From positions 55,712,258-55,776,257 of the forward strand of contig NC_092635.1 in NCBI RefSeq assembly GCF_039555335.1: a stretch of 64,000 bases of DNA, read 5' to 3'. Both the position numbers and the translations under genes were made by a program. Origin of the DNA: Amphiura filiformis. Taxonomy: Eukaryota; Echinodermata; Ophiuroidea; Amphilepidida; Amphiuridae. A model generated the notes under the pieces. That model saw only the letters and a list, made by a program, of their open reading frames with translations, made no database searches and was not told the DNA's origin. This document shows, one piece after another, positions 4,249-50,102 of this stretch (positions are counted from its first letter, which is position 1; each line of letters opens with the position of its first letter).

Positions 4249-4347
4249 GATGGATGGACTGCTCTTCACATGGCGGCATGCAATGATCACAGTGATATAT
4301 GTGAGATTCTGTTGAAGTACAATGCCAATGTGGATGCAGTATCAAAG
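4249..4347 (+). CDS. Ankyrin repeat exon A1
   Basis: A 99-nt phase-0 exon between ATCATCAG and GTTAGT encodes one 33-residue ANK repeat beginning [16 protein letters not shown] and ending NANVDAVSK. It is the first intact ANK exon in the window and is isolated from the next by a foldback element carrying a LINE fragment. Confidence 0.8.
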
Positions 4348-7300
4348 GTTAGTTTTATTCATGGATCTTATTGGTACAAACTAGTATTAGTCTAGGAGCT
4401 AAATCTCATGCAGGCCTTAATTAAGGATTGAGTTCACCAACCACGTCTACCAATGTTTGATACCATTAGATGTTAGGATAGACCCTCTAGATCACTGCTT
4501 GGGGGTAGTGGACTCAAATTGCAATCGCTAGCGGTCACGAAAGGTCACACAGGGGTTAAAAATTGAAAAAGGCTTTAATCTTGTTGAAGGGTATATCAAA
4601 TTATTCGTCTGGTGACAAGGATTTAAAAAATGTATAGTTTGTGCTATCTACGACCTTTCGTTATTGAGTTATCCTACAAACCCTCATTCTTAGGCAAAAC
4701 GACATGTTTTGGTGCAAAAATACATTGTGATGATAAACCTTTTGATATAGATTGGCCAGCATATCCAATTAAAGCATTAGGTGTGTATTTCTCATATGAC
4801 GAGAGTGCTGCTGAGAATATAAATTTTACCTTAAAGATTAGACAGATCAAAACTCTTCTAAATACATGTATATGGAAGTCAAGAAGACTTACTTTGTCTG
4901 GTAAAATTCTTTTGATAAAACCTTTTGCTTTGTCTAAGTTTTTTAGCATCAGTGATTCATATTCCAGACTATGTTATTAATCAGATTGATAAAATCATTT
5001 GTAATTTTTCTTTGGAATGGTGGTAAATGTTTTATTAAGAAAACCGCTATTTTTGGCGACATTGATGAAGGAGAATTGAAGATGGTGAATTTTAAATCAA
5101 TTTATTCGTGTTCAAAAAATTAAGTGGGCTAATAAATATAACAATTCCTTATTTGATTGGAAGATTCTTTTTGATGATTTTATCTCTCCTTTTGGTGGAA
5201 ATTTGATTTTCTATTGTAATATTATTTCAAAGCAAAATCAAAGTTGGAAAAAATGCCCATCTTTTATAAAGACATGCTAAAATCATAATTTAACTTTATT
5301 AATCCAAATAATGTAAATCCCTTGCATCAATGTATTTGGAATAATCAGCACATCTGTATTAATAAAAGACCATGTTATTACACGCTTTTTTTTTCAAACA
5401 GTGGTTCAAAATTAGTTAGTGATTTATCTTATACCAATAAAAATATCATCCCTTTTGATATTTGATGTCAGAAATTTGGTTAATGCAGTTCCACTCCCTT
5501 GGAAACGAATTTAAAAACAGGGTTTTGAAAGAGAACTGTGTAATCCAAAAGGCTTTGTTTTAATAATGGTAATGAAACTCCTATGCACAACATGACATCT
5601 AAAATTAAATTATTTACCGTATTTTGATTCAAAGGATTCAGAAACCCCCAACATCTCAGAAAAGGTTTATAGATTAATTAGAATGTCAATGATGATGAGT
5701 GGAGAATGTTTCATTACAAAATCTGTACACATTGTAAAAATTTCCTGAGACATATAGGCACCTTTTTTGGGTTTGTAACCATGCTATGAAGATATGGTAT
5801 GGAGTAAATTTTCAAAACAATGTTGAAAATTTGGATTATAACAAAGTTCCTTTTGGTTTTGGTCTTAAAGAATCTGATACGCTGATTAATTTATGTCTTA
5901 TTTTGATGAAAAAGGTGATTTACGGCAGCAGATTCAGGAATCAAACTCCTTCTATAATCTCCATTGAGCGCTTGATAAAATTTCATTATAATTTAGAAAA
6001 GCAGATTGCTAGGAGTAAGAATAACAATATACAAGTGGGGTGTTTTAAAAGCTTTTGTACCAAATAGTGTATGTTATCATGTATACATGTATGAATGTAA
6101 ACATTGATATCATTTGTATTTCATCCAATGTATTTATTTGATCAATGTAATGTAAAATAATTTCGTGTGATGTATGGTTTTTTTTGTTATGTGCAATGAA
6201 AGTCAAAGATCAACAGTGGCCTATGGCCACCCAATGGCCTTTGGCCTTGTTTATACTCTATCTCAGTACGTGAACACAGTAGATAGACAAACTATTCTTT
6301 TTCTGATTCTAATCAGCTACACAAACAGTTTGCTACCCTTTTTGCCCAAATCGGAGTAGGTTGCAATTTTGATCCATGTACAATCAAAAACATGTCATTT
6401 AGCCTAAAAAGGAGGTTTTTGAAGCATAAATCAATAACGATAGATCGTAGATAGCACAAACTTTACTTTTTGTTAATCCTTGTCATCAGACGAGTAATTT
6501 GATATATCTTTCAGCAAGATCGAAGCATTTTCAGGTTTTTACCACTGTGTGACCTTTCGTGACCTTTAGCGAAAAACGTACCCTATAATTGGAGTCCACT
6601 ACCCCCTAGCAGTGATCTAGAGAGTCTATACTAACACCTTATGGTATCAAAGATTGGTTGACATGGGTGTTGAACTCATCCATTTTTCAAAACCCTTTGC
6701 TCCTAGACTATATAGATAACATAAACTTTGTTCTTGTGTACTACCATAATTATTTATATACAAGATTATGAATTGTCTTTTCAATCAGGAATGATTAACC
6801 AATTATTACTAAATGTAACGGTTCTCATCTCTCCCATTATCAGAATGGATGGACGGCTCTCCATTTGGCGGCTCGATACAATCACACGGGTATATGTGAG
6901 ATTCTATTGAAGTACAATGCCAATTTGAATGCAGTTACACAGGTTAGTTTTATTCATGGATCTTATTGTTATAAACTGACCGGTATAAATAACATAAACT
7001 TTGTTCTTGTGTAGGGTCTTAGCTAGAAATTGAGGGTTGCCTGTCATTTGAATAAAATTGCCTGTCCTTTATTTGGCCTTTAAAACATAACTGATATGGC
7101 CTTGTTCTATAAATCTGGTCTAGTAAAAAGGTCAATTAGCTTCTCAACACATACAATTTATAATATAGCATCTGTCATAGGCATTAATTTTGCCCGTCCC
7201 AGAAGCAAACTCCCCGTCTAAAATGACGGGCAGACGGGTGGTTAGCTAACACACTGTTATCTTGTGTACTACCATTAGAATTGATAAGCAAGCTTATGAA

Positions 7301-10300: not shown

Positions 10301-13300
10301 GAGTGCCCCCCCCCGGCATGCAGCACGGATGTGTGTGGTCCTCCCCAGGTTTTGACATAAATTACAAATAACGTCGTGAATGACCCAGCGTTTTCATTTT
10401 ATTATTACTAAATTAATCGTCGTTTATCACGAGTGCTAAGAGTTGTACCAGTTCAATTCATCAAAATTAATTTGTATTAAATGAAAAACAAACAGACAAG
10501 TAGAGTCATATGTCTTTCTATGACCGTATTCCTACCAAAATCAAAATCAAAATGATTTTCAATACACAAGAAACGTGTTGATATGTATATCTTTGAAAAT
10601 CGCCGAATGTTAACCACATGCACAGTCACCGTGGCACAGCATAGGCATCTTTAGCATTCAGTGAAATTGGCAGTGGTTCGAACCCCGGTGAAAATTTTAG
10701 TATTTTGATTCTTTTTACTAATGCGCTGTGCCGTTTTACAAACACGCCCCTGAATGAAACTCATGGACATGTACCCTTAAGCTATGGTTGTGTCTTATGA
10801 ATGTTTTTTTTTCAATCAACAATGACAAATAAATTTAATGGAGTATTAACACAATTTAGTTTTATTCATGGATCTTGAAATTTCACACTTGCATAGAATC
10901 TTATTTCATTTATAACTTTACTTTTTAAGCACGTGCATAGATAACCGTAACTTATTATCAGAAATATGAACCGTCGTTTCAATCATTAATGACTAATTAA
11001 TTACTAAATGTAACGGTTTTCTTTTCCAATCATCAGGATGAATGGAATGCTCTCCATTTTGCAGCTTTCAACGGCAACGCTGGTACATGTGAGATTCTAT
11101 TGAAGAACAATCCCAATTTGAATGCAGTTATACAGGTTAGTTTTATTCATGTACCTTATTGTTATAAACTGACCGGAATTAATAACATAAACTTTGTTCT
11201 TGTGTACTACCATTAGAATTGATAAGCAAGCTTATGAATTGTCTGTTCAATCAAAATTTGAATGCAGTATTAACAACGGTTAATTTTATTGATGGATCTT
11301 AATGTTCCATACTTGCATTGAACCGTATTTTCTTTTTATGTAATATACGTTATAAGCAAGTGAGGATTATTTCTGAATCTTTAAATACAAACTGGCATAG
11401 ATAACTTTAACCTATTGTTTGGTATTATTACCAAAAATATGAATTTTCTTTCCAATCAGCAACAACTATTTAATTAATAAATGTCGGTTCTCTTCTCCTA
11501 TCATCAGAATGGTTCCACTGCTCTCCACTTGGCAGCTGAAAATGGTCACATTGGTACATGTGAGATTTTATTGAAGCATAATGCTGATGTAAATGCAGGC
11601 GACGAGGTTAGTTTTAGTCATGGATCTCAAAGCAATAATGTGTGATTTGCATAAAGAATAGATTTCCTATTCAAATGTTAGTTTTCACTGATAGCTACTG
11701 ATCACATTGTCCCGTTTTGATTTCGAACCAAACGAATGAGGTAAAACGAAGAAAATTGCTATTTCATTCCAACGCCTACAACATGTACAATGCGTGGTAT
11801 CAGCTCGCTGATCGTATTATTGTCATGAACATTGGCGTAGTTTTACACAGCTAGGACGAGCAAACAAGACGTAAGATGAATAGTGATATGTGCACAGATT
11901 ATACGTGAAGACGAACAGTGCTTACACGGGCGCTTACAATGTGTGTATAATCTCACCGATCGTATATTTATCATCATGATTATTGGCTGAGCTACGCGCC
12001 GCTGATATGATGTACAAACAAGAGGTAAGACGAATAGCGATATGCATACAGTTTATACGGTACGTCAATGATTTATCTAGCACTCGATCAGTGAGCTCAG
12101 AATAAAACCGGAGATCTCCTGTTTTATTGTAAATGTTACATTTTACTGTAATTAAAGCTCTTGTACACCAATGGCCACTACAATGGTGCAAAAAAACAGA
12201 AATTCGAAAAAAATTGAGGGTTTTGCTGTGGAGCAAATCTCACATTATGGCTTTAATGTTCCAAACGTGCATAGATAACCTTAACCTATTGTTGTGCCTT
12301 ATTATCAAAATATGAATCGTCTTTTCAATTAGCAATAACTGAGCAATTACTAAATGTAACGGTTCTCTCCTCCTATCATCAGAATGGTTGGACTGCTCTC
12401 CATTGGGCAGCTGGAAATGGTCACACTGGTACATGTGAGATTTTATTGAAGTACAATGGCGATGTTAATGCAGTAACATTATGTTAGTTTTATGCATGAA
12501 TCTTAATTAGCAATAACTGAGCAATTACTAAATGTAACGGTTCTCTTCTCCTATCATCAGGATGGTTTGACTGCTCTCCATTGGGCAACTGCAAATGGTC
12601 ACACTGATACATGTGAGATTTTATTGAAGTACATTGCCGATGTAAATGCATGTGGCAAGGTTAGTTTTAATCATGGATCTTGATGTTCGAAACGTTCACA
12701 CTGCTTTAATGTTCCAAACGTGCATAGATAACCTTAACCTATTGTTGTGCCTTATTATCAAAATATGAATCGTCTTTTCAATTAGCAATAACTGAGCAAT
12801 TACTAAATGTAACTGTTCTCTTCTCCTATCATCAGAATGGTTGGACTGCTCTCCACTTGGCAGCTGACGATGGTCACACTGGTACATGTGAGATTCTTTT
12901 GCAGAACAGTGCCGATATAAATGCAGTATTAACAGAAGTTAGTTCTCTGTTGTATATTACAATTAACAGGTATAAACAAAATCGTGAATGAACATTCAAA
13001 TAGCACTGACTTATTAATTACTGAAATGTAATGATTTTTGTCTCTCCTTTCACTAGGATGGATTTACTGCTCTGCATAGGGCAGCAGGCAATGGTCATAC
13101 TGGTACATGTGAAGTGATATTGAAGTACAATGCCAATGTGAATGATTATGGAACGGTTAGTGTTATTTAAGGATGTTTTATTGCATTTTCTTAGTCAGTG
13201 GGAGTGATCTAGTTCGTAGACACATAAAGGACAATCGCATGATTTTGGGTGCCGTCTATCAGGCCGTAGACGACCCCACGTCATCATGAGAGTTGATAAC

Positions 13301-16300
13301 GCGTAACACGCTTGTAGAGTTGCGAGTGTGTATCGCGTTGTATGCGTAGACTAGTGCGTAGACTAGCTATACTCGCAACAGAATACGTGATGTTGTCAAC
13401 AAGTTTCGTTAATTTATAATTACATGTTTTTATGACGGTAACTTTGTTTTTGCTTAAAAAGTAATTTACAGTTATTAAAATAATATTTAAGTGACTGCAC
13501 CGGTATCCAATACGATAAAAATATTGGACCTGCCTGTCGTCTATTACACGGTAGAGGATAGTAAAAACAAAAATTCCTATCGTTTATTCTCTAAATACAT
13601 CACCGCGTTCTATTCTTGTTACTTGTCTGCAAACATAAATTGTCTTTTCAGTCATTAACTTACACAGATAACCTAATTCAGTTTTTGTGTGTATTGAATT
13701 TGGGCAAAATTATGAATCATCTTTTCAAATCAAACAATGACCAATTTTAATGGTGCACTCTAGATTACAAGGATTTAAAAATAAATCCTTAAGACTGTAG
13801 TTAGGGACCAATCAATTTTAGGTTTAAAATTAATCTTATAGATTTGAATTTTAAATCTTAAAGATTTAATTTTAAATCTTAAAAATTTAATTTTAAATCT
13901 AGCACTTGATTGGTCCCTAATCACAGTCCCTTGGGATTTATCTTAAATCCTTGAAATTTAGAGTGTGTGTGTGTGTGTGTGTGTGACGGGGGTGGTAATT
14001 AAGTACTAAATGAAACGATTCTCTTCTCCTTTCATCCGGATGGACGCTCCATTTGGTAGCTGATAATGGTCACCTTGGTATTAATTATTAATCTTAATGT
14101 TCTTGCAACATTATTTGACTTTGTGTAGCATTTCTGATCTCTCCTATCATCAGGATGGACATACTGCCCTCCATTGGGCAGCTCGCAAAGGTCACACTGA
14201 TACATGTGAGATTCTTTTGAAATATAATGCCGATGTAAATGCAGTTGAAGGGGTTAGTTTTATTCATATATTTTTATTTTACATAATCAAAGTTTGTTTT
14301 TGTTTATTGTATTGATTAACATTTATTGTTTAACATTATGAATTTTTTTCAACCCGCAACAACTAAGGATATCCAGTAACAGAGGTTAGTTTTATTCACG
14401 GATCTGTGTATTGTAATTCAAAATTGATAATTCTCAAAATATAAAAATCAGGTTTCAATTTACCAATGACTAATTGTTGAAGGAGATGGCTGCGGCCAAA
14501 AATTACATTGCACTTCTCCTAAGATGTTGTAGTTCGTGAAACAGATATTCAAAATATTATATGGATGGTATATTTTATTTTGTAGCATCGTTAACATGCC
14601 CACTATAAATACTCCAAACAAACATGTGACGAAGTGAAAATTAAAAATCATGTACGTTTGAAGTATTCTTACATGATACAGTACTTGTTAGTAAGATAGA
14701 AATAGAAATTCCTGTATACATGATATTATGTTTAGAGGTACGCCCCTCGGTTCAAACACGAAGGCAAAATGTTTAGACTTTCACAATGCCCTCCAAATTA
14801 CCAATGCGCAATTTTTAACATCTATTGGGGTGCGTATATCATATAACGAGCAAGTTGATTGGGACGACATACTTTTAGTTTGATACGCGGAGGATATGAA
14901 TGTAACTTATTAATCTCGTTTGCGCTTATCTCTCAGTCTTGAAATGCTTTATACTTGGTTAAGGGGCAAATGAAAATAAGATCAGCAATAATGATGGATT
15001 GTGAAGAACATTAAAGGAAACGTGGTGCATAGTGTCACGTGTCCCAAAATCTCCTTATAATTTTGCACCGTCATTTCTTTGTAGGGAAATCAAAATGTAT
15101 AATTCATTATAAAACATGCACTCATTTACTTTTCTATTTGCCAGCATGGAGATACGGCACTTCACTTTGCAGCGAGACGTAGAGACGCCATTGATCTGTG
15201 CATCTACCTGATTGAAAATGGCGCTAATGTATCAGCACAGAATATGGTACATGTGTAAAAAATAATAATAAATTTTTTGACAGGGTAACAAACAATTACC
15301 CACATTCACAGGCGGGCTACGAGCGACATTTTTTTATATATTTCATACTTACGATTGTTAGGTCCAAACAACATAAAAGAGCAAAAGGAGTATTATATCC
15401 CCACTAAGGCATTGTAAGATGACTTCAATCTACGCGCCTCTTTTGCCGCAATTTGCCCATATCAGATATTGGAGCACTTTGATATTTTTGATCCCCAGAG
15501 AGCCAAAAATGTGACACTTGACCTTTTCAGTAATAACATTATACACATCTACATTTTTCTAAATCATCATACATTGGTATGGTTTTAAGGGGCTGTGCAA
15601 TAATTATGAGCCGGGGGTAAAATTTCCAAACGGCTCGCCCTCTCGCCCACCAAAAATCTTGCCCCCCCCCCCTTGCACATGCCAATTTTTTGGGATCCCA
15701 ATTTGCAAACCTTTAATGGTCTCCGCGAGCAGAAAAATTTACATATTTTCCTGCGCCTTTTTAGAGCGTTTTATTTAAAAGGCGCCCCAAGAATATGTGC
15801 CAAAAATCACTTGCCCCTCTCGGCTTGCCAAAAATTGCTCCCCTCCCCCCTCGGCTCGCCAAAAATATCTTGCCCCAGGGCTCATAATTATTGCACAGCC
15901 CCTAAATACAAGAACACAATTGTGAAATTAATTTTGTGCAGCCCATAACGTTGTATCTCTAACCACCACCCCCCGGGCTCACCCACTATACAAAAAAAAA
16001 CGGAATACGAGGAGCCCGGGATGAGAAGCACATGTCAAAATTCAAAGAGAGTCATCAATGGTCAAACAGTATCGCTATCATGCTGCTGGTGCTCTCACAG
16101 CTACAGGTGCTTCCCCCGGGGTGCTCCAGTTAAACTTAGAGGAAATATTCTATTTTAAGTTTCGTAATCATACTCTTATTGGAAATTGGTTTTGGACAAA
16201 TTCGGGATTGTCAAACTCTGCGGGCACATAGTGTCATTTATTTATTTTCTGTAATGTACATATTATGCTTCATGCTTCCCATAATTCAGAATGGCGAAAA

Positions 16301-19300
16301 CCCGATGTTCACACTTCCGAATTCTGGCAATGTCTTTCATTCAGTTTACACAGCCATACAGGAAGACACTTTTCACAAAGCTATACAGGTAATTCAATAA
16401 TTTTATTTCTATACCACTGTCAAACAGCAAATTGAATGGACAGAGTTGCGTGTAAACCCAGGTAGGTAAGGAAAACGCAACTTTTGAATAAAGACCAGGT
16501 GTACACTTATTTAACATTAAGAATAACCTTTCTGTTGTAGTTTATATGAAACCAGTATACGTGTAAATTGGAAAATTACCTTCAGATTCTCATAATGTAT
16601 TAATTTGTCAAAACGTGGTCTAATTTGACATATAAAAAAAATAGATTTTCAATTTATGCAAATGAACAAAGAATCAGTCAATTTGTGATGCTGAATATTA
16701 ATTTGCAATGCTATTATTATTGCTCCGGATTTCTGACTTACAAATTATGTTCTTGATTGATATATTTTCCATTTTGTAATGACGATTTGTTTTTATAACT
16801 TTTACAAGTTTTGTGAATATTAATTTGTCAATTTTTTTTTTGTCATTCGTCAAAAATAATAACTTGTTCTGCAGAAATTTCATTTGAAATGCTGCGATGG
16901 TTATATCAGCATTACAAATAAATAATCAGTATTACAAAATGTCAAATTACACCACGTTTGTGACGACTTTTCAGTATTAAAATATTTAAATTGCGCGTAT
17001 TAAAATATAAAAATGCATATCTATATTGCAAGAGAAAAGAGCCGATGAAACTTGGACATGTGTAAATGTTAATGATGTTTTAGTTATTATGCTCCCACCC
17101 TCATGCGGTGGGTAGGGTGAAGTGGTCCTGATTCAGGTTTAATGAAGATTGATCATTTATATAATCTTTGTGTTAAAAATATTGTCACATTTTTATCATG
17201 ACGTAAAATCGAGTACCATTCAGTGGCAGAGATACATTTGTTACTTTGCCGAAAAAGACTTATAAAGTATATTTCTGTTTTATTTTGTTACTCTCTTTGC
17301 AGAGAGCGAAGTACAAAGACCTGATGCAAACCGGTTCCACTCCCGTCCAGATCGTCAAATTGTTCATTTGTGGAGCACCTACTGCTGGAAAGACAACTTT
17401 AAAGAACTCCCTCACAAAAGTATACCCTCATAAATGTTTTGTTATCTATACAGGATCCATTATTAATGATTGTGTATCATGTTGACCACCACACGCCACA
17501 ACAGCTCATGGCGGATAATAATATAATGTCTCATATTGACTGATGTTCTGTACGGTGTACCATCTCCGCCAATTTCCTTTTTAATTCCCCCTTTTTTTTA
17601 ATTTCCCTTTTTTTAATTTCCCCTTTTTATTTAATTTCCTTTTTTAATTTCCCCTTTTTTTAATTTCCCCTTTTTTTAATTTCCCCTTTTTTTAATTTCC
17701 CTTTTTTTTTCCCCCTTTTTTTTTTTATTTCTCTTTTTTTTATTTTTTTTTTTCCCCCTCTTTTTTTTTTTTAATTCCCCCTTTTAATTTCTCACAAAGC
17801 AGAATCTTGGCCGAGGCACATACTCAGTACTCAGTGGTTGTCCAAGAATTTGCTCGCTTCCCGCTGCGTATGCTGGTCTTTACGCACTGTAGTCTTTACG
17901 TGTGACAGACCATGGATATAGTATATGGAGAGACCCACTGTGTAGATGTCAGTGGTCAGACCACGTGTATCCACTGATATAGCCTGTGCCGGAGCCTGTG
18001 TGCTAGGGCCGTAGACTTATTTCAAGTCACGGGAAAACCGTAAGAATACTAGTATATAAATCGCAGTGGTTATCCCGGCCCGTGAGGGGGGGGGTGTAAT
18101 TTTCCCAAGGCGTGCCAAAAAATGGCTTGCTTCCCTTCTGGGCCTGCAAAAAAAAATCTTCGCCCCCCCCCTTCTTTGCACATGCCAAATGTTTTAAAAT
18201 TGCCATTAAAATTGCCATGTAAAGGGACGGCATATTCGTACTATTTAATAGAGCTATTTTATGACTATTAGGCCTATGTGACTATTTTTGCATTTTTCTC
18301 ACAAACTAATAACACACTGGTAAGGAACTGCATTGGTTTCCTGTGTTCCAATGAATTGTTGTTTAACTTATGTTGATTGTATATAAATGTAATAATGATA
18401 GGCCTATTGCTCCGTCATATTTATCTGAACTTCTTTCAAATTATGTTCCCACTCCCCGGGTCCCACTCGTACTCTTCGATCTGGAAACATGCAACTTCTA
18501 CAAAATAAGAGCACATGAGTCATTTGAAATTGCAGCTCCACGTCTATGGAATGAACTGTCTATATATTTTAGAACTGCTAAAAATGTAACTATGTTTAAA
18601 AAGATGTTAAAAACTCATGTTATGTCGGGGTTTGCTCAGGGAAATTTGAAAATGCCACCAAATAGTGAAAAACTGTATAAAATGTCTAACTTTTGTGTTG
18701 ATTTGCAAAATAAAACATAGAAAAGTGATTATTTAGCAGTAATCAACCATTAAACAATCAATTCTAGCATTAATTTTAGGCCTGCGATCCAAGATTCTGG
18801 CCATAGGAGCTCATAGGCCTAGTGCTTTACAGTGGACACGGAAAATCACGGAATCGTCCAATTAATTTGCAACACGGATTTTAGATTTTGTAACACCATG
18901 AACACGGAGAAATCGTGGCTTTAGCTATAGGCCGAATAAAGACTTATACAGTGGGAGGGTCTAAATATTTAATATATTATTAACAATTATTATTCTAATC
19001 TAATTCAAATTAGGCCTTAGCCTCGTGATCACTCTATTGGATTCGGATTGTTTTACTAGGTTTGGATTTAATTTTTGTCTTCACTATAATAGGCCAAGAT
19101 ATAAACAAAAATAGAAAGCTATGCGAGCGCTATCCATGTTGGACAGCTGTGTTCAAATATAAAGTACGGACGAAGCCTTGACTAAGGCTAATGCTCCCCG
19201 CGGTATACTAACATGAATACACTAGCTGCAACATTATACGAACATCAAAAAAAATATCGGGGAAATTAAAAAAAAAAGGGGAAAAAAAAAAGGGGAAATT

Positions 19301-22300
19301 AAAAAAAAGGGGAAATTAAAAGAAAAAAACTTTGTCCGATCGGGCCCAAATTTGGTGGGTGGCATCCTTGATACAAGGGGGAATATAATGCGCGAAATAA
19401 AATCTAAGTCAACCAAGGTCAAAGGTCATAACGGAGGGGTCAAATTTTAAACTTTGTCCGATCGAGCTCAAATTTGGTGGGTGGAATTCTTGATACGAGG
19501 GGAATATATGCCCGAAATAAAATTGAGGTCAAGCGAGGTCAAAGGTCATTACGGAGGGGGTCAAATTTCAAACTTTGTCCGATCGGGCTCAAACTTGGTG
19601 GGTGGAATCCTTGATATGAGGGGAACATGTAAAACTTAAAGTAAATTATTTAAAAAAATTAATATCAATTTAAGCAAAATCGTATGGGTGTTTCAAGCAA
19701 ATCCCGCGAGCAATACCCGCCTCTGTCAAATTTGATTTTACTTGGGAAATTAAAAAAGGGAAAAAAAAAAAAAAAAAAAGGGAAATTCAAAAAAAAAAGG
19801 TGAAATTAAAAAAAAAAAGGGGAAAAAAAAAAAAAAAAAAGGAAAAAGGAAATTAAAAAAAAAAGGGAAAATTAAAAAAAAAAAAAGGAAAAAAAAAAAA
19901 AAAAGGGGAAAAAAAAAAAAAAAGGGGAAATTAAAAAAAAAAGGGGAAATTAAAAAAAAAAGGGGAAATTCAAAAAAAGGGAAATTAAAAAAAAAGTGAA
20001 ATTCAAAAAAAAGGGAAATTAAAAAAGGAAATTAAAAAAAGGGAAATTAAAAAAGGAAATTGGCGGAGATGGTACACCGTAGTTCTGCCAGGACACAGCA
20101 GATAGGCCGCCCTCTCTATTTATAATTAATTTACATTGGCCGTGAGACATTTACGAGAGAATAAAATCATTACTTGTTCAATGTGCCGGCAGATCTGCCA
20201 TGAGCTGTTGTGGCGTGTGGTGGTGAGCTGAACGACATGTAATCGTTAGTGCACGCTGGTTCGAATCCGATAGGTTCTGATTTTTTTTCTCCTTTATTAT
20301 AATGCCAGTTTGTCTGAGCTCCATTTCTTTATTTAGAAATAAAATTGATAACATTTGATATAAAATTGTAAGCAGTGTGACAATTTTTGATGTCAGTACG
20401 TGTGTGGCGAAGGGTCTTTATCTATAGATCTATGCTTTTATACATTATCAATGTACAATACATGCCGCATTCTTATAACATTATTTACTGTCTATGTTTA
20501 TCTGAACATGTGATAAAAGTGTACATTCTTTTTAGGACCTCCAAGAAACCGAATTAGAATCAGGCAATCATCTCCAAGAGCTTCCATACAACCCAACCGC
20601 AGGCATTGATATCAGTAAAAGCACAATCAAGGGTGTTGGCACCTTTAGAATTTGGGATCTTGCTGGCCACGTGGAATACCATATATCACACGCTATGTTT
20701 CTTGGCGCAGAAAATTCCATATTTATCGTCATGTATAATCTCATCAAGAAACTACATATGCAAGACGTAAGTCCGTTAATGTAAACTATAAATGCTTTGA
20801 GTTTTGAAAATCCTGAAACTGATGTTTCAACAAATGTATCTAAAGGTACATGTAATATCAAAATTTAAAAAAAATTTAATCTAAAAGTAACGAATAATTA
20901 TGTAAATCTTATAATGTTCTTTACATGATTAAATAAAGATTATATTATATGTAAACTTTTTAAAATCCAATATGTGATGTGTCACCCTCGTTTGACTTAT
21001 CAAGCTCCATTATTGGCTGTGCTTTTTGAAATCTGGACATTCGACAACTCAACCAACCAAACCAAAGGTTATCATAGTTGCTTCTCATATGGACCAGGTT
21101 GAAGACAAGAAAACGGGTAGGTTAAGAGCTTTAATCGACAAATGCTATAATATCGACGCAAATATGGTTATTTTGTGGCCATAGTAAAAAGGCTTTTGTC
21201 CTTTTGTTTGCTTCGTGCGCAGATATCGTGAAAATGACGTTAGATGCCAATTAGAGTGGGTAGGCCAAAATAAAGGTTCATTTACACTTCAGTGGCTAAT
21301 AAGGACTACCCAGAACCCATTTTCCCACCCAAAGCATACAGTCACGATACTGTCATCCAACTTCTAGTAACAATTTTTGTATGAAAACAACAATAAGGTA
21401 TCGTAATCGAATTCACCACAAAATAAAAGAAAATGTAAATTATCCCCGGTGAGTGTGATTTTAAGCGGAGGGCAAGTTAATTAAAGCCGCATACACTTGT
21501 CTAATATTGCCAACTTAGAATAATGTTCTACGTAATGATTATTTTCCAGGATACCGGGTAGCCCAACTGAACCAAACCAAAATGAGACGACTATTTCAGG
21601 AATCTCTTGACATTGTTGACTCTGTGATCACTGTCAATGCTTGCAATGCTACTGAACAAGGTTATGAAATACTAAAGGACATTCTCAAGCAGATGGCAGT
21701 TGATATCTTGGTAGGTTTACGATTTATTACTGTACATGTTGTTCTGATTTGTTTTAAACCCAAAACTACCTAACAATATTAAATAAACAGATTTGTCAAG
21801 AGAGCTGAGGAAGGCACCCGAACCTGATATAATACGGTTAAACACCCATTCTTTCCTTCCTTACGCTGGAATATTTTGTATAATATCACGACAATTGTCC
21901 TCGCCCACAGGGAACCCGAATGCTACCACTGATCTGCCAAAACATATTGGATCAAAGCCGTCGTTGGTACATGCCTAGTTATCCTGTTCTACCGTGGTCG
22001 TTTTTCTTTGAGAGAGTAAAGGAGATCGCAGGAAAACAAGTCCGAGATATTGAAAGTCTGATTGAAGAAAACACCGTACGAACTGCTGCTGCATACCTTC
22101 ATGATATGGGAGAGGTAAACCACATTAACCACATTTTCTTTGGCTTTATTTTGCTTTAGGTCTCTTTCTTTAGTCTGTTAATAGTATAACTTGCTTTAGG
22201 TTACTTAGTATAACATATTTATCATCCCTCATACATAAAAAAAAAGAGTGACAAGAAACTAATCAGAGCTTTTAGTACTCAGGGGTGGTTGCCACATTAT

Positions 22301-25300
22301 GTTGAATTAGCAAACGAACGTACGGTATACGCCTCGTTTAATGAACACATTACATGATCAGAAGTCTGATATGGGAGAGGTAAACCACATTAACCACATT
22401 TTTGGCTATTTTGCTGTTAGTATAACTTGCTTTAGGTTACTTAGTATAACATATTTATTCCCTCTTACATAAAAATAAAAGAGTGACAAGAAACTAATCA
22501 GAGCTTCTAGAACTCAGGAGTGGTTGCCACATGTTGAATTAGCAAACGAACGTACGGTATACGCCTCGTTTAATGAACACATTACATGATCAGAAGTCTT
22601 GGTAGTTGTGTATCGCTGATGAAAGCAAACTTACTTCCACACAGATTTACGTAGCAAACGATGAGAGTGATGATGCTTGCGAGGCTATGATCATTATGAA
22701 CACCCAATGGCTTTGCTCCAACGTCATCGCTAAAGTGTTAGCGGGTGATGAGTTTCCAGCACAGTTCCAGAAACTACCAGACAAACCGCTGTACAGCGAA
22801 GACGAATTACGGGAATTCCTGGTAACTGGCGAAGGGCTTGACTTTGAGCTTACTGTGTTGCTTCTGGAACACCTCAAGATTCTCTTTACCACCAATAATG
22901 GGAGCTTTTTAATTCCATCCAAACTACCACCATCTTTGCCACTTATCCTGATAGAGAAGAGCGACAACGTGCAGCTTTATGGTATTCGCGTCGAGTGCGT
23001 TGATGAGACAGACATGTTCTCACCAGATTTCTTCCCGCACATCCATCTTCATATGCTAGAGTGTTATCCTGAAGCGCAAGGGAAAGCCAACTACTCAAAT
23101 TCCGCCGTCAAGTTCATTTCTACAGTTGAAGGAATGGTTCAGAAGACGGACATGGGGAGAGCCATAAATGTTGCAGTTATATGCAAGAATCGGCAGGAGA
23201 GACCTGAAGCTCATTCTCAGCTACAATCGTATGTAACAAATGTTGCTTACATCAAAAATATAAATCCCGATTTAAAAAATATCTTAATAGCTCATAATAA
23301 AGGCACATATTTACTCACGTGTGAACAATAAGATTCAAAATACGAATTACGTAAAGAGGTAATCGATTTCAAAAAGTAACATTTAGGATCCTTATCTCAG
23401 GTTGCAGCGATCCATAAAGCTGTATCTTCGTCAGTGTTCACCAGGAACAGTTGTCGCGTGGAAGTTCCTTAGCCCCAAGTCATTGAAAACTGAGGGCAAT
23501 CTAGAGAATGTTCTGTACTATGAGCCAGATGATTTGCACAAGGCTGAAGAAGGAAACGGTACGGTGTATCATTCACGACAGACTCATGCTGACAACATGG
23601 TCGATGTCATTTGCCAAGTAAGTTGAATAATGTTATCATGTTTGTTCTTTGTTGAGCGAAATAATCTGTTTTCTTGACTCGAACTATATCATTCGTTTTT
23701 AAATCAAAGTTTGAATTTGTCTATTGCTTTCCAAACACAATCGATTTTACACTTACGCTTGTTTAATTTTAAGGGTGTCGATATGATGTTTATCACTGAA
23801 CTCGGCGGACTTAGTGGCTGGGAGTGGTTACCACTCGAGCTCCAACAACAGATATGTGCAGTACTTGATAAGACCCATCCATTAGGAAACGATCACCGGA
23901 TGCTCGCACAAATATTTGGCATTCCTGAAGACAAGTTTCTTCGTCTTGTTCGATTTTGTTCAACGACTAAGGATCGATCGATTACTGACGAAATACTTAG
24001 AGTGAGTACTTCTAACTAATTGGTATAAACACGGTGTTATGAAATTAAATACTTGATCAGGTGAATATATAATAAAACCATGTGGCTCCTAAGGCTTGTG
24101 GATTTGTTTCTGTGTCGTAATGACAATCTTCTGTGTATTTTAGGAGGTATGTGCTACTCGTAGACGTAATGGACACAAGCTGGCAATTCAAGAGGTGATG
24201 ACGGTACTAAAACATCCAGGCATCATTGGCAACGATGATTTAGCAAAGAGAATCGAGTCGGTGCTGATTGATAAAGGACATCAAGTAGGTATTTCCTGAT
24301 TTGGGCTATGAATTTAACTCTGTGACACCATATTGATGCACAACCAACTTTATTCACTGACAACTTAAATCCACGAACCCCCAGTTTGTATGAGAAGTTT
24401 ATAACTTGAGATACGGTGACACGTGACTATATGATAATAATAATCAAACTCAATTTTTGAGACATTCAGTATGTAAAAGCTCACCTTTGAAATAAAATGA
24501 TATGTATTTCTTTTTTCTGCAGGTGACACATCATGACCCATCATATGATTTTGGTAAGGAATGTCCACATAACATAACACAAACACAGCAAGACAGCTTT
24601 TATATAGTGTTGTTTCCACGTATGAGAAGGACCATTACACTTTAAAATATAGCAGGAACCTTACAACTGGTGTAAAACAAAGAATAAACCATGGAAAATC
24701 AAAGAGCAGCAGAAAACATGAAGGGATTAAAAAACAAAGTTTGGCTGACGGAAAGAAATTCTGAAGTTCAATGAGCTAAGTGGGCGATTTTAGACGCAAT
24801 TCACAGTTTGTGTATTCATATTTTACGGTTTATGGTGTATCAGATATGAATTGTTTTCCCGCCTATAAATGTTTACAACGGAACTGAGACACGTGAATCA
24901 GTTCTGGATCTTCAGGCGATTTTGGCTATATTTTGCACTTAACTTTAGACATAACAATACTACTAATCTATAAAGGAAAACTAAAAGCAATTTGTAAATT
25001 TATTATTAACATTCATTCTTTAGGTGTTCCTGATTTGACCCTTCTCTGGCGTGCAGTTTTGAAACGCACCCACCAAGACCTAAAGCGCACTATCAAAGCA
25101 AGTCAACTGCTTCTATACTTGGTGGGTGAAGAGTCTCAGTTATCTGAGGATGATGAAGACGAAATCGAGACTAAAGAGAAACTTGAAGGGCGACGGAAAG
25201 CTGTAGATCTGCTCTTGTTTAAGCTCATGCAGTTAAAGAAACCAGACTGGTGTAAGGGGTTTCTAGCTGGACTCCAACAAGAAGCGCCCTCATTGGTACC

Positions 25301-27611
25301 GATGGTTACCGATGCACGGGACAAACTCCTGCAAGAGAAATGGTTTGCGTCCATTCCGGCTCAGAACGCATCAGAACAACAGAGTGCGACCGGTAGGTAT
25401 CAAAGTAAGGATAAAATCGTCTTTTCTCAATTAATGTGTAAATTGTTCAGATCATAGATTTTTTTTTTCAAATGGATTTGATGTAGGAAAAAATGTTATC
25501 GATATAATGTTATAATATTCATATATGTATTGATTTTTCTTTATCCATTAGATCTAATTACGTCAAGGGCACTCATTCCATCGCATACTGTCTATACAAA
25601 ACAAGATCGTGGAATTGTACAAAGGAAACAGGAAGTAGTAAAGTTCAAGACAGAAGAACTCATGCCTTACAACATGCCTGTAAAACGTTAGTATAGTATA
25701 TTGTTATAAATATGTAAATTTAACAGGGTTTAATAATAATATACCTGTATATTGCAAAAAATATGTTGCAAAATGTTCTTTGCTGTTTTGTTTTTTTCTT
25801 TTTAGTCTTCTTATATGCTTTTTATGTAAATCTATAGAGAAATTCCAGATGCTTGCCAGTTTCAAGGCGATACTGAGTGTTCCGAAAGTGAGAGAAACAC
25901 TGATCAACATCATCACCGAAGACACCCTCGATCACTTTTTGGATATCTCAAGACTCGATAAGGATCAAATACGTCAACAGTTCATCAACCACGGCCAGCA
26001 TGCTGGGGCCGAATACTTTCTTGATAGACTCGGTCTTATGGGTACCTTTTGGCCTCAGCATCTAATGCAAGCTCTTCAGGCACAGAAGCATTATGACTAT
26101 ATGCAGTACTTGTATGAAGAATACCAAGATTATTTAAAACTACAAGAGGACCAACCAGCGACTGAGGAAATAGGTACTTTTTAATATATTAATAATATAT
26201 ATTAATGTTATATAGTAAGTGAACTAAAAGCGGCAACACGTTTCTCCATAAATTTTTTAAGACGGTTAGTATTTTTTTTTATATACACGGGTTGTTTTCT
26301 GACAAATCAATTGTACCTGATGAAGTTTATAGTATTTACTGAAGTATTTTATACTATATGTATTCTTTCTCTCAGTCCAACAACCGAAAGTTCCTCAAAA
26401 GCCTCAGAAATCGGCAGATGAAATTGCAGGTAGGTCAAAGCTTCAGCATTCCATTTCTTTACTAAAATTCCCAGTATTTAAATAATGGCAAAATACTCTT
26501 CCTAAAACGATAGACCGAGAATACGAATTATGTGATCGAAGCACTCGCTTCATCATGTTCAACAGAAACATATTTTACACATTGGACAAAACTTTCATTA
26601 GTTATCTTTATTTTCATTTCATTCGCTAGTTTAATTTTCGTTAAATACTATTAAGCTACCTACTTTTAAAAAAGTTCAAAATATTCAAACATGTTCGTTG
26701 GCTTGAATGCCGGAAATTTAAAGTACTTGAATATGGTATTGTGTATACACATATATTTTAATTGTAAGGCGCTTTTTCAAAAGAATCAAGGCGCAATACA
26801 AAATACTGCCCCAGAAAAATACATACAATACATAAGCAAAAGAAAATGAACACTCATTTGGAAACAGGTGTGGTTTTAATTATTTGGTTTTCAAAGTGGC
26901 AAGAGAACGAGCGTAACTGATGGGAAGGAGGGTGTTCCAAAGCCTTAAAAAAGACATATCACAGAAAAATTCCTATCACCCATGGAACGATTTGAGGTGC
27001 CCTGATCGATCCATAACTGCAAATTAATGATTTATAGAATCTACTGAAAATCATTCAGGTGAACTTTGGTGGTGTCATGAAATGGCAATCTGCCAACCAC
27101 TTTGGCTAAGTTTCATTGGCTTTGATCCACAGTCGATCTTCAGCACATGTACATCTGGGAAAAGGTTGTTGATCTGAAGATGGTAATGCTTCGTGAGATA
27201 GCCTCTGAAGCAATCATCCGAACCTTATCCACCCATATGCCAGACTTCCTCCAGATGTACAAACGTGAATTCACTGCCAGGAAATCATCTGATGGAGAGA
27301 CAAGGGCAGTGAGATGGATCATGGATCGACTACAAAAGTGTAAAGATGGCAGATGGCCTGGAGCACTTATTGACATCTTACAATGTAATGATGCATTACT
27401 TGACGAGATTCGAAGAGAATTCTGGAGAATTCACGACAAAGGTAAATCAAATTCACTCTTTTCAGTTATTATAGTGATTATAATGTAAAGTGGTGTTAAT
27501 AACTATAAACGTTATTTTTTAGCATGATATAGTAACCTTTCATTTCTGTTAATTTTATCAGGTTGTTCATGCGAGGAGGCATCTTCACAGTGTCCTGATG
27601 ATGTAAACTAA
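4249..27611 (+). CDS. ANK array-Roc-COR-Death-CARDx3 protein (spliced gene, 5' end not found)
   Basis: A multi-exon gene predicted from splice signals, phase continuity and domains. Fourteen ANK or ANK-like exons lie between 4249 and 16388, then 16 exons: 17303-17419, 20536-20766, 21005-21116, 21550-21710, 21911-22114, 22645-23228, 23401-23617, 23774-24001, 24144-24284, 24523-24553, 25024-25392, 25552-25686, 25838-26173, 26376-26429, 27133-27441, 27562-27611. These 16 sum to 3279 nt, all phases match, and no internal stop occurs. The domain order resembles DAPK1 without its kinase, with CARD-like domains of RIG-I/MAVS type added. By family, Roc-COR is a dimerising GTPase, and Death and CARD domains assemble by like-with-like contacts. 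A role as a cytosolic signalling scaffold or immune sensor is inference. The first exon may lie left of the window. One ANK exon (12383-12482) has a length that breaks frame and is probably skipped. No poly(A) signal was assigned. Confidence 0.85.
4429..6679. mobile_element. Foldback element with ~285-bp inverted arms
   Basis: The left arm (about 4429-4715) and right arm (about 6375-6679) are imperfect inverted copies; for example, ATCAAATTAYTCGTCTGRTG reads outward from both. The arms are noticeably diverged, so the element is old. It lies in the intron between ANK exons A1 and A2, and its centre holds a LINE fragment. Confidence 0.75.
4716..6130 (+). mobile_element. LINE fragment (L1/Tx1-like reverse transcriptase C-terminus)
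   Basis: 4716-4950 reads [14 protein letters not shown] and then [16 protein letters not shown], the pattern that follows the RT domain in L1/Tx1-type LINEs. 5786-6064 reads [17 protein letters not shown] and then RSKNNNI, the C-terminal region of the same class. Frames shift and stops occur between, so it is a 5'-truncated dead copy. It sits inside the foldback element. Confidence 0.65.
6844..6942 (+). CDS. Ankyrin repeat exon A2
   Basis: A 99-nt phase-0 exon after CATTATCAG and before GTTAGT. It encodes one repeat starting [16 protein letters not shown] and ending NANLNAVTQ. Flanking intron sequence (TTACTAAATGTAACGG before, TTTTATTCATGG after) is shared with other exons of the array, so exon and introns were duplicated together. 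Confidence 0.8.
7369..7467 (+). CDS. Ankyrin repeat exon A3
   Basis: A 99-nt phase-0 exon with acceptor ATCATCAG and donor GTTAGT. The repeat starts [16 protein letters not shown] and ends NANVNAVEE. The usual tryptophan after NG is arginine here. Confidence 0.8.
7627..7725 (+). CDS. Ankyrin repeat exon A4
   Basis: A 99-nt phase-0 exon after ATCATTAG. The repeat starts [16 protein letters not shown] and ends NGDVNAVTH. It is only about 160 nt from exon A3, the tightest spacing in the array. Confidence 0.8.
8258..8353 (+). CDS. Ankyrin repeat exon A5 (96 nt)
   Basis: A 96-nt exon, one codon shorter than its neighbours and still phase 0, with donor GTCAGT. It starts [16 protein letters not shown]. 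The end is divergent (NAICSVVK), having lost the normal NxxVNAV turn, so it may be a weak or degenerating repeat. Confidence 0.7.
9207..10316. mobile_element. GC-ended element with 7-bp target duplication
   Basis: It starts with CCC and a long G-run leading into GCACTCACA and ends GAGTGC followed by a C-run and GG. The 7-bp CATGCAG flanks both ends (9200-9206 and 10317-10323). Both ends carry repeated short phrases (CCGTTCCWTAGACCC on the left, CAGTTCCCAAGACCCCC on the right). The middle has an open frame (9652-9963) that I do not recognise. Confidence 0.7.
10620..10695 (+). repeat. tRNA-like (SINE head) fragment
   Basis: GTGGCACAGCATAGG resembles a Pol III A box and GGTTCGAACCCCG a B box about 40 nt later. 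No tRNA fold or terminator is clear, so this would be a decayed SINE or tRNA-like piece. Confidence 0.3.
10831..10875 (+). pseudogene. Ankyrin exon-end remnant
   Basis: A short stretch resembles the last codons of an ANK exon followed by the family's intron start TTTTATTCATGGATCTT, with a degenerate donor. No exon body remains upstream. Confidence 0.5.
11037..11135 (+). CDS. Ankyrin repeat exon A6
   Basis: A 99-nt phase-0 exon with acceptor ATCATCAG and donor GTTAGT. The repeat starts [16 protein letters not shown] and ends NPNLNAVIQ. It is more divergent than most members of the array. Confidence 0.78.
11255..11278 (+). pseudogene. Ankyrin exon-end remnant
   Basis: AATTTGAATGCAGTATTAAC matches the NLNAVL end of ANK exons and is followed by GTTAAT and an intron start like that of the array, without the exon body. 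It is a deletion product within the array. Confidence 0.55.
11508..11606 (+). CDS. Ankyrin repeat exon A7
   Basis: A 99-nt phase-0 exon encoding a repeat that starts [16 protein letters not shown] and ends NADVNAGDE, bounded by ATCATCAG and GTTAGT. Confidence 0.8.
12383..12482 (+). pseudogene. Ankyrin exon A8 with a frame-breaking length
   Basis: Normal acceptor and a repeat starting [16 protein letters not shown]. The only GTTAGT donor gives 100 nt instead of 99, so inclusion would shift frame into the next exon. Skipping it leaves the rest of the gene in phase because all ANK exons are phase 0. It is probably a recently disabled exon, unless the extra base is an assembly error. Confidence 0.6.
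12561..12659 (+). CDS. Ankyrin repeat exon A9
   Basis: A 99-nt phase-0 exon. The repeat starts [16 protein letters not shown] and ends IADVNACGK. Exons A8, A9 and A10 and their introns are near copies of each other, a local triplication of about 150-250 nt per unit. Confidence 0.8.
12836..12937 (+). CDS. Ankyrin repeat exon A10 (102 nt)
   Basis: A 102-nt phase-0 exon. The repeat starts [16 protein letters not shown] and ends [10 protein letters not shown], with donor GTTAGT. The extra codon sits at the exon end, the same place as in the 102-nt exons of the second ANK gene. Confidence 0.8.
13057..13155 (+). CDS. Ankyrin repeat exon A11
   Basis: A 99-nt phase-0 exon. The repeat starts [16 protein letters not shown] and ends NANVNDYGT. 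The acceptor is CACTAG, the donor GTTAGT. Confidence 0.8.
13756..13965. mobile_element. Palindromic MITE, ~60-bp arms
   Basis: The left arm (CACTCTAGATTACAAGGATT and onward to GGGACCAATCA) is the inverted copy of the right arm (TGATTGGTCCC to GAGTG). The centre is made of AT-rich repeats. A GT microsatellite follows directly. Confidence 0.75.
13963..13986. repeat. GT microsatellite
   Basis: About twelve GT units directly after the MITE end. Confidence 0.85.
14034..14085 (+). pseudogene. Ankyrin exon-start remnant
   Basis: After a mutated acceptor (TTTCATCCG), about 45 nt resemble an exon start ([11 protein letters not shown]-like) and then stop at ATTAATTATTAATC. The exon is truncated by about half. 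Confidence 0.6.
14154..14252 (+). CDS. Ankyrin repeat exon A12
   Basis: A 99-nt phase-0 exon. The repeat starts [16 protein letters not shown] and ends NADVNAVEG, bounded by ATCATCAG and GTTAGT. Remnants of dead ANK exons lie on both sides (14034-14085 and 14370-14402). Confidence 0.8.
14370..14402 (+). pseudogene. Ankyrin exon-end remnant
   Basis: A piece reading CCAGTAACAGAG followed by GTTAGTTTTATTCACGGATC, the exon/intron junction of the array without its exon body. Confidence 0.5.
15145..15246 (+). CDS. Ankyrin repeat exon A13 (divergent)
   Basis: A 102-nt phase-0 exon after TTTGCCAG. The repeat starts [15 protein letters not shown] and ends [10 protein letters not shown]. It lacks the array-specific TCEILLKYN block, so it is not part of the recent amplification and is probably an ancestral repeat next to the GTPase. 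Confidence 0.8.
15599..15902. mobile_element. Harbinger-like MITE, TAA target duplication
   Basis: Inverted ends GGGGCTGTGCAATAATTATG and CATAATTATTGCACAGCCCC, flanked by TAA at 15596-15598 and 15903-15905. A 3-bp TWA duplication is the PIF/Harbinger habit. The inside has C-runs and GCCAAAAAT repeats. Confidence 0.8.
16290..16388 (+). CDS. ANK-to-Roc linker exon A14
   Basis: A 99-nt phase-0 exon with acceptor AATTCAG and donor GTAATT, starting [14 protein letters not shown] and ending DTFHKAIQ. Length and phase fit the array. Only the start resembles an ANK repeat, so it may be a capping repeat before the GTPase. Confidence 0.65.
17303..17419 (+). CDS. Roc GTPase exon with the Walker A motif
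   Basis: A 117-nt phase-0 exon after CTTTGCAG, encoding 39 residues. The P-loop GAPTAGKT occupies residues 24-31 of the exon, preceded by a hydrophobic strand (VKLFIC) as in Roco and DAPK1 GTPases. The donor is GTATAC. Confidence 0.85.
17575..17790. repeat. Low-complexity AATTTCCCCTTTTT tract
   Basis: Irregular repetition of AATTTCCCC plus T-runs. It is the inverted counterpart of the A/GGGGAAATT tract at 19742-20053. Confidence 0.9.
18080..18190. repeat. Fragment related to the GGGG-ended MITEs
   Basis: A G-run, GCCAAAAAATGGCTTGC, a C-run and GCACATGCCAA match the inside of the element at 15599-15902, without terminal repeats. Confidence 0.5.
18318..18720 (+). mobile_element. LINE 3' fragment (CR1/L2/Jockey-like RT end)
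   Basis: A start like CATTGGTTTCCTGTG (HWFPV), then [29 protein letters not shown] and [10 protein letters not shown] follow the known C-terminal pattern of CR1/L2-type LINE polyproteins (LHWLPV, PxYL, AP-x-LWN-x-LP, FK-x-x-LKTHL). It is 5'-truncated with at least one break near its start. Confidence 0.7.
19329..19627. repeat. 121-122-bp tandem repeat, ~2.5 copies
   Basis: ACTTTGTCCGATCGRGC starts at 19329, 19451 and 19572. Each unit runs through TTTGGTGGGTGGMAT and AGGTCAAAGGTCATWACGG. Confidence 0.9.
19742..20053. repeat. Low-complexity GGGGAAATTAAAAAA tract
   Basis: A-runs broken by GGGG and GGGAAATT units; the complement of the 17575 tract, at the other end of the same element. A smaller patch lies at 19258-19326. 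Confidence 0.9.
20211..20290 (+). repeat. tRNA-like segment at the element edge
   Basis: TGGCGTGTGGTGG is A-box-like and GGTTCGAATCC is a good B box about 50 nt later, followed by a T-run that could end Pol III transcription. It overlaps the outer arm of the inverted-repeat element, so the element end may derive from a tRNA or SINE. Confidence 0.35.
20536..20766 (+). CDS. Roc GTPase exon with switch I and DxxG
   Basis: A 231-nt phase-0 exon (77 codons). PTAGIDISK fits the G2/switch I threonine of Roc domains. RIWDLAGH gives the G3 DxxG motif, followed by [11 protein letters not shown] as in DAPK1-type Roc (histidine or glutamine after DxxG). The following strand is SIFIVMYNL. The intron before it holds a 2.7-kb inverted-repeat element. 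Confidence 0.88.
21005..21116 (+). CDS. Roc GTPase exon with the G4 motif
   Basis: A 112-nt exon, phase 0 in and phase 1 out, starting [24 protein letters not shown] supplies the G4 base-recognition motif as SHxD, the usual Roco replacement for NKxD. The acceptor is TATCAAG, the donor GTAGGT. Confidence 0.83.
21550..21710 (+). CDS. Roc C-terminal part
   Basis: A 161-nt exon, phase 1 to phase 0, continuing the frame with [15 protein letters not shown] and including [10 protein letters not shown], which probably corresponds to the G5 region. It ends [10 protein letters not shown] before GTAGGT. Confidence 0.83.
21911..22114 (+). CDS. COR domain, first exon
   Basis: A 204-nt phase-0 exon. [15 protein letters not shown], then [15 protein letters not shown], and the end [11 protein letters not shown] match the start of COR domains, where LHxxGE precedes the conserved beta strand. 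Its last bases were duplicated with the intron (see the tandem duplication). Confidence 0.85.
22105..22600 (+). repeat. Tandem duplication of exon end plus intron
   Basis: Two copies of about 230-260 nt lie head to tail, joined near 22364-22369. Each begins with GATATGGGAGAGGTAAACC (the last codons of the COR exon plus its donor) and ends with ATGATCAGAAGTCT. The second copy has a donor but no acceptor, so it should stay intronic. The copies differ by small deletions and substitutions. Confidence 0.85.
22645..23228 (+). CDS. COR domain, main exon
   Basis: A 584-nt exon, phase 0 to phase 2, open throughout. [19 protein letters not shown] matches the COR signature of DAPK/Roco proteins (NPQWL-type strand), followed by a winged-helix-like stretch ([19 protein letters not shown]) and [12 protein letters not shown]. 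The donor is GTATGT. Confidence 0.87.
23401..23617 (+). CDS. Post-COR exon
   Basis: A 217-nt exon, phase 2 to phase 0. It contains [13 protein letters not shown] and [12 protein letters not shown]. It links COR to the Death domain. I do not assign a named domain. The exon is open and splices in phase on both sides. Confidence 0.78.
23774..24001 (+). CDS. Death domain, first exon
   Basis: A 228-nt phase-0 exon. [16 protein letters not shown], then [18 protein letters not shown], fits the first helices of a Death domain of DAPK type. The tryptophan often seen before the MLA helix is histidine-arginine here. Confidence 0.82.
24144..24284 (+). CDS. Death domain, second exon
   Basis: A 141-nt phase-0 exon. 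[14 protein letters not shown] and [16 protein letters not shown] complete the Death fold (last helices, including the L-E/D-x-L-x-x-I/V pattern). The donor is GTAGGT. Confidence 0.8.
24523..24553 (+). CDS. Short linker exon
   Basis: A 31-nt exon, phase 0 to phase 1, between TTTCTGCAG and GTAAGG, encoding [10 protein letters not shown]. It is needed to move from phase 0 to the phase-1 exons that follow, which supports it as real. Confidence 0.65.
25024..25392 (+). CDS. CARD-like domain 1
   Basis: A 369-nt exon, phase 1 on both sides, holding a whole domain. Helical pattern: [16 protein letters not shown], then [12 protein letters not shown], an acidic stretch [12 protein letters not shown], then [19 protein letters not shown] and [16 protein letters not shown]. 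The A-x-x-LL-x-x-L...W-x-x-F-L-x-A/G-L signature is that of RIG-I/MDA5/MAVS CARDs. The symmetric exon can be duplicated or skipped without breaking frame. Confidence 0.75.
25552..25686 (+). CDS. Linker exon between CARDs 1 and 2
   Basis: A 135-nt exon, phase 1 on both sides, with charged low-complexity sequence ([16 protein letters not shown]). No domain recognised. It probably acts as a flexible spacer. Confidence 0.7.
25838..26173 (+). CDS. CARD-like domain 2
   Basis: A 336-nt exon, phase 1 on both sides. [46 protein letters not shown] and [19 protein letters not shown] give a CARD helix pattern like RIG-I CARD (A-x-x-FL-x-x-L...W-F-x-x-F/L-x-x-AL). It ends in an acidic tail EDQPATEE. Confidence 0.75.
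26376..26429 (+). CDS. Proline/lysine linker exon
   Basis: A 54-nt exon, phase 1 on both sides, encoding [17 protein letters not shown] decayed copy is present at 48906-48959, which confirms the exon boundaries by homology. Confidence 0.72.
27133..27441 (+). CDS. CARD-like domain 3
   Basis: A 309-nt exon, phase 1 on both sides. [20 protein letters not shown], then [31 protein letters not shown] and [10 protein letters not shown] follow the same CARD pattern as domains 1 and 2. A broken copy lies at 49677-50775. Confidence 0.73.
27562..27611 (+). CDS. Terminal exon and stop
   Basis: A 50-nt exon from phase 1, encoding a cysteine-containing tail ([15 protein letters not shown]) and TAA at 27609-27611. 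Acceptor TTTTATCAG. Confidence 0.72.
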
Positions 27612-28574: not shown

Positions 28575-28636
28575 CTAATTAATTATCTTAATTACTCCGG
28601 AATGAATTAACTTCCTACATATCTCAATATGCCTTA

Positions 28637-49977: not shown

Positions 49978-50102
49978 GTGAGATTGCATCGGAAGTAATC
50001 ATCCGAACCTTGTCCACCCATATATCAGACTTCCTTCATATGTACAAAGTGACTACAAACGTAAATTCACTGCCAGGAAATCATCAGATGGAGAGACGAG
50101 GC

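Follow-up and report, generated by a model that had tools for sequence, protein, structure and literature searches.

Gene structure and domain organization

We analyzed a window of 64,000 nucleotides from the genome of the brittle star Amphiura filiformis (NC_092635.1, positions 55,712,258 to 55,776,257), which contains, on the plus strand, a predicted gene coding for ankyrin repeats, a Roc-COR GTPase module, a Death domain and, behind these, three CARDs of the RLR (RIG-I-like receptor) type. The sixteen consecutive exons that the original prediction had joined between 17303 and 27611 are confirmed: they have AG/GT borders, splice in phase without a stop, and end with a TAA codon in the final exon. 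Together with three further exons (14097-14252, 15145-15246 and 16290-16388) they constitute the NCBI-predicted protein P0001, to which they are identical at 1211 of 1211 residues. Exons were placed by their AG/GT borders and phase, and both our joins and the NCBI model are predictions. In a crude control, random segments of the window were matched in length and frame to 17 of the 19 exons; the log10 probability that all would be open was about -24. As far as predictions go, the architecture of the gene is real and conserved. Its features are:

14097-14252, plus strand: exon 1 of the NCBI model, with the ATG at 14097 and one ankyrin repeat (repeat alone, 14154-14252)
15145-15246, plus strand: ankyrin repeat exon, phase 0-0 (Pfam Ank E 4e-6, exon borders)
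16290-16388, plus strand: linker exon from the ankyrin repeats to Roc, phase 0-0
17303-17419, plus strand: Roc exon with the P-loop GAPTAGKT (Pfam Roc E 1.7e-9 on the joined protein)
20536-20766, plus strand: Roc exon with PTAGID (switch I) and DLAGH (G3)
21005-21116, plus strand: Roc exon with SHMD (G4)
21550-21710, plus strand: end of Roc
21911-23617, plus strand: COR and the region following it, exons 21911-22114, 22645-23228 and 23401-23617 (Pfam COR-A, below cut-off)
23774-24284, plus strand: Death domain, exons 23774-24001 and 24144-24284 (Pfam Death, below cut-off)
24523-24553, plus strand: micro-exon of 31 nt, leading from phase 0 to phase 1
25024-25392, plus strand: CARD1 exon, phase 1-1 (CARD_2 E 3.8e-12)
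25552-25686, plus strand: linker exon, phase 1-1
25838-26173, plus strand: CARD2 exon, phase 1-1 (CARD_2 E 1.6e-8)
26376-26429, plus strand: linker exon, phase 1-1
27133-27441, plus strand: CARD3 exon, phase 1-1 (CARD_2 E 8.1e-6)
27562-27611, plus strand: last exon, coding for a tail with GCxC, stop TAA

Every exon from 25024 to 27441 is thus of phase 1-1. Given that the ankyrin exons are of phase 0-0, units could be added or removed at either end of the gene with the reading frame kept.

Two introns carry repeats of their own. Between the first and second Roc exons lie inverted repeats of 83% identity (17551-17779 and 19848-20081), which, although of simple sequence, look like the termini of an inserted element. 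Further along, a tandem duplication (22102-22367 and 22367-22599, 85%) places a copy of the end of exon 21911-22114, together with the donor site of that exon, in the intron that follows.

Three predicted C-terminal CARDs of the RLR type

The Pfam profile CARD_2, which describes the CARDs of RIG-I, MDA5 and MAVS, matches the joined protein in three stretches (E 2.7e-26, 91.8 bits). Taken exon by exon, CARD1 (46.5 bits) and CARD2 (34.8 bits) score above the cut-off of 28.2 and CARD3 (26.2 bits, E 8.1e-6) under it; the CARD3 versions of all four paralogues that have one match the same profile. The first two also match RIG-I in order, CARD1 pairing weakly with RIG-I CARD1 and CARD2 with RIG-I CARD2 (E 2.4e-4), and both adopt the six-helix CARD fold in a structure model of the paralogue P0006. 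For CARD3, a comparison with PDB sequences gave no match. The proposal of three RLR-type CARD exons following the Death domain is therefore borne out by the three CARD_2 stretches and their retention in paralogues, with profile and predicted fold agreeing for CARD1 (25024-25392) and CARD2 (25838-26173), and with CARD3 (27133-27441) a putative member of the type by sequence alone. Just behind CARD3, the GCxC motif (27562-27611) is kept in 4/4 paralogues and the remaining tail is variable; lipid attachment or metal binding would be guesses at its role.

The setting of these CARDs differs from that in the known receptors. In P0001, Pfam matched neither a DExD/H helicase nor a RIG-I C-terminal RNA-binding domain at E of 1 or less, and both are absent from the 24 families listed in the scan of models, which covered six of the seven Amphiura models described below. 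MAVS is laid out with a single N-terminal CARD and a C-terminal transmembrane anchor; here the three CARD_2 stretches are C-terminal, and the tail behind CARD3, judged by eye, is short and polar. The likeness of CARD1 and CARD2 to the RIG-I pair could also be that of a decoy, which would dampen antiviral signaling by engaging polyubiquitin or the CARDs of RLR or MAVS-like proteins, with Roc-COR setting the availability of its own CARDs. Such a brake would fit the Pfam results for the joined protein and the six models, in which no catalytic output domain was found besides the GTPase. Yet three CARDs and a Death domain exceed what a decoy needs, and we consider this explanation quite improbable.

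The Roc-COR-Death core and the search for a kinase

On the joined protein, Pfam detects Roc well above the cut-off (E 1.7e-9, 38.4 bits against 27), preceded by ankyrin repeats, likewise above it (E 4e-6, and 1.7e-17 on P0001). The P-loop, PTAGID, DLAGH and SHMD motifs are present in each of the five models that cover them, and a profile built from four paralogues retrieves the Roc domain of LRRK2 (E 1.3e-7), as well as RIG-I CARDs, among PDB sequences. The COR-A match after Roc is under the cut-off (E 4.8e-4, 20.5 bits against 35.3); it recurs in 5/6 models scanned (best E 5.8e-5), and Foldseek on the P0006 structure model finds the COR of 3dpt (E 1.7e-3) in a low-confidence part of that model. 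Next in order comes the Death match, also below the cut-off, with E 0.021 on the joined protein and E 0.0026 (18.3 bits against 22.6) for exon 23774-24001 alone. It too is found in five of the six models (best E 4.9e-4); the P0006 model is of low confidence at this region, and the nearest PDB sequences to the four-paralogue profile are those of UNC5, as weak matches (E 0.076 and 0.57). Thus, of the predicted series ankyrin-Roc-COR-Death, the order stands together with Roc and the ankyrin repeats, and COR and Death are weak matches in the expected places.

The order ankyrin-Roc-COR-Death is that of DAPK1. The brittle star gene shares it but differs in bearing three CARDs behind the Death domain and in that no counterpart of the N-terminal CaM-dependent kinase of DAPK1 was found in the upstream open reading frames (ORFs) and models scanned. 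No kinase family was matched up to E 0.5 in the 65 plus-strand ORFs of at least 45 aa between 1 and 17300 (shorter exons and sequence outside the window not being covered), the best non-ankyrin family there having E 0.037, nor did Pfam match a kinase in the six models. A DAPK-like core would also suit a cytosolic scaffold with housekeeping duties in autophagy, the cytoskeleton or wound healing, whose CARDs only bind partners and have no immune role. In its favor, DAPK1 is tied to autophagy and to wound closure in C. elegans (PMC4104024). In our judgement, however, RIG-I-ordered tandem RLR-type CARDs and a lineage expansion spread over contigs of three lengths better fit signaling or defense, and we think the scaffold unlikely, if still worth weighing.

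A family of paralogues in Amphiura

Three protein searches of limited reach recovered seven Amphiura models, namely P0001 and six predicted paralogues, and within that reach no other organism with ankyrin-Roc-COR-Death and three RLR-type CARDs. By the length of their longest contig the models group as 70993361 (P0001, P0002 and P0007), 64335885 (P0003, P0004 and P0006) and 67122163 (P0005). CARD1 is present in 7/7, CARD2 in five and CARD3 in four; P0006 ends after CARD2, and P0005 and P0007 continue past CARD1 and then stop. In our gene, the intron sequence after CARD1 (25393-25457) reads through openly to 25454, giving a CARD1-only ending as in P0005 and P0007, and a short form of this kind is possible.

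Identical runs of at least 30 residues with P0001 occur in P0002 (33, 76, 42 and 32), P0005 (54) and P0007 (63 and 53) and in none of P0003, P0004 and P0006; those of P0007, whose overall identity is 84%, may stem from gene conversion or recent duplication. Over the whole linker between CARD1 and CARD2, identity to P0001 is 80% in P0002, 36% in P0003 and 48% in P0004. The CARDs of P0003 and P0004 are clearly better conserved than this linker, the difference being least for CARD2 of P0004 (56% vs 48%), and in P0002 CARD and linker conservation differ little.

The family also bears on whether prediction has fused a Roco gene with a separate CARD gene downstream. Our joins and the NCBI models are all predictions, the latter not independent of one another; ATTAAA/AATAAA-like words stand in the intron before CARD1 (24683 and 24726) as against one (28533) in 27612-29000; and P0005, besides ending soon after CARD1 as P0007 does, has an insert before it. 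Against this, the join involves neither a stop nor a change of frame, the 31-nt micro-exon links phases 0 and 1, and CARD1 follows the Death region in all seven models across the three contig groups (P0007 lacking 27 Death residues). We therefore regard such an artefact as very unlikely.

Elsewhere in the window, at 48876-50856, the 3' part of the gene is present a second time in broken form, corresponding to 26346-27199 (75%), 27193-27305 (81%), 27303-27408 (99%) and 27528-27579 (76%). Since it is interrupted, it is probably a pseudogene fragment, and the stretch of 99% hints that gene conversion occurred or that the copy is recent.

Ankyrin exon arrays

Upstream of the NCBI model, which begins at 14097, is an array of single-repeat ankyrin exons that the model excludes and that are candidate exons of the transcript:

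4249-13155, plus strand: ten in-frame single-repeat ankyrin exons, starting at 4249, 6844, 7369, 7627, 8258, 11037, 11508, 12561, 12836 and 13057 (96-102 bp, phase 0-0, AG/GT borders)
12383-12482, plus strand: out-of-phase ankyrin unit of 100 bp

Six more in-frame ankyrin exons form a second plus-strand array at 60707-63875 (60707, 60979, 61225, 62935, 63187 and 63774), which is perhaps the start of another paralogue that continues beyond the window. The two arrays hold 17 in-frame single-repeat exons of 96-102 bp and phase 0-0 (including 63187-63288), only the 3'-end ones of which belong to the NCBI model.

We compared 15 ankyrin exons for variation, a set that excludes 8258 (96 bp), 63187 (not caught by the search pattern), the broken units 3487 and 14039, the out-of-phase unit of 100 bp at 12383, and the last repeat, at 15145. 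Their overall dN/dS is 0.44, with entropy peaking at exon positions 11, 32, 8, 33 and 3. At positions 1, 3, 11, 12, 31 and 33, which from designed ankyrin work we take to be ligand contacts, mean entropy is 1.87, compared with 0.75 at the remaining positions (permutation p 0.004, or 0.002 with 63187 added). The ratio of dN to dS at these sites is 1.09 (5-95% 0.87-1.28), and positive selection is therefore not shown. Variable surface positions are a feature of every ankyrin array; hence, the contact-site variation supports use as protein rather than an immune role.

Neighboring features

Minus-strand ORFs at 37949-38858 match the Major Facilitator Superfamily (E 8e-8 and 2.5e-11) and mark a downstream transporter gene, and a plus-strand ORF at 53359-53814 matches a C2H2 zinc finger (E 5.1e-6). 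ORFs at 4627-6064 and 18367-18717 resemble, on visual inspection, fragments of reverse-transcriptase elements, with no Pfam match for the three tested; the insert before CARD1 in P0005 is somewhat similar to them.

Comparison with known systems

Among the matches listed in full-text literature, with most subscription papers outside reach, there was no report of ankyrin-Roc-COR-Death with RLR-type CARDs. The words 'death domain', 'CARD' and 'DAPK' are absent from the available main text of the A. filiformis genome paper (PMC11310086), and the accessible parts of PMC7159879, PMC2575513 and PMC2246300 contain nothing on this arrangement. The original prediction had called the arrangement unfamiliar, which holds for the exact combination; it is less unprecedented in its elements. 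Trichoplax adhaerens has at least 17 putative ROCO genes, whose products include ones that bear CARD and death domains (PMC4104024), and thus likewise joins Roc-COR to death-fold domains in a lineage-expanded set. In contrast, ankyrin repeats with three RLR-type CARDs are not described in the part of that paper available, which does not state the type or number of its CARDs. In Aplysia, TLR and MyD88 proteins carry ROCO domains (PMC9334734), again placing a Roco GTPase and innate-immune parts in one invertebrate protein, although these are TIR-based and the brittle star protein is CARD-based. In bacteria, AP-GTPase-COR proteins are described as homologues of DAP kinase and have C-terminal domains of at least 24 kinds (PMC8195603).

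For the CARDs themselves, the likeness to the tandem CARDs of RIG-I and MDA5 and the CARD of MAVS lies in the CARD_2 type, the RIG-I CARD1-CARD2 order and the predicted fold; the differences are the C-terminal position of three CARDs, a 45-residue linker exon, and no detected helicase or RIG-I C-terminal domain. Invertebrate RLRs are reported to have had CARDs and other domains grafted onto them, and sea urchins have RIG-I-like genes (PMC8998645, PMC2686710). The ankyrin array has a parallel in the ROCO genes of brown algae, with one LRR per exon in Ectocarpus (summarized in PMC4104024) and one per 72-bp exon, alternative splicing and positively selected sites in four species (PMC11378527). 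Both are Roco genes whose recognition repeats form single-repeat tandem exons of one phase, the algal ones being LRRs of phase 2 whereas ours are ankyrin repeats (96-102 bp, phase 0); alternative splicing and diversifying selection are shown in the algae and not in the brittle star. Among Roco proteins, we judge the joining of ankyrin-Roc-COR-Death to three RLR-type CARDs to be new.

Proposed function

The predicted gene model, the domain order, the type of CARD1 and CARD2, the conservation among paralogues and the exon phases, all of which the analysis shows, are best accommodated, at a probability of about one half, by a lineage-expanded intracellular signaling protein with a DAPK-like core, no detected kinase, and the three-CARD tail as its output. 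In such a protein, the ankyrin repeats would bind a ligand or partner and Roc-COR, with its intact G1, G3 and G4 motifs and family membership, would act as a GTP-controlled dimer switch. Dimerization or release might then expose both the Death domain and the CARD tail, whose RLR-type CARDs could seed an assembly like that of RIG-I and MAVS. That this GTP-gated assembly may serve antimicrobial or cell-death signaling is suggested by the type of the CARDs, by the expansion of the family and by the array of ankyrin exons.

More tentatively, and with clearly less than even prospects, the paralogues might form a family of GTPase-switched CARD receptors paralleling the NLRs. Swappable single-repeat ankyrin exons would provide varied recognition, Roc-COR would take the place of the NACHT switch, and the RLR-type CARD pair, probably a block from an RLR-like gene, would with the third CARD signal in the manner of MAVS. 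With CARD exons of phase 1-1 and ankyrin exons of phase 0-0, reshuffling at both ends would leave the frame intact.

If the signaling interpretation is true, RLR/MAVS-type signaling would in this lineage stand under a Roco GTPase rather than an RNA helicase, and the protein would offer a direct test of whether Roc-COR dimerization seeds CARD filaments. It would also extend the one-repeat-per-exon idea of the brown-algal ROCO genes to an animal, and would help to set LRRK2 and DAPK1 within an older theme of GTPase switches in defense.
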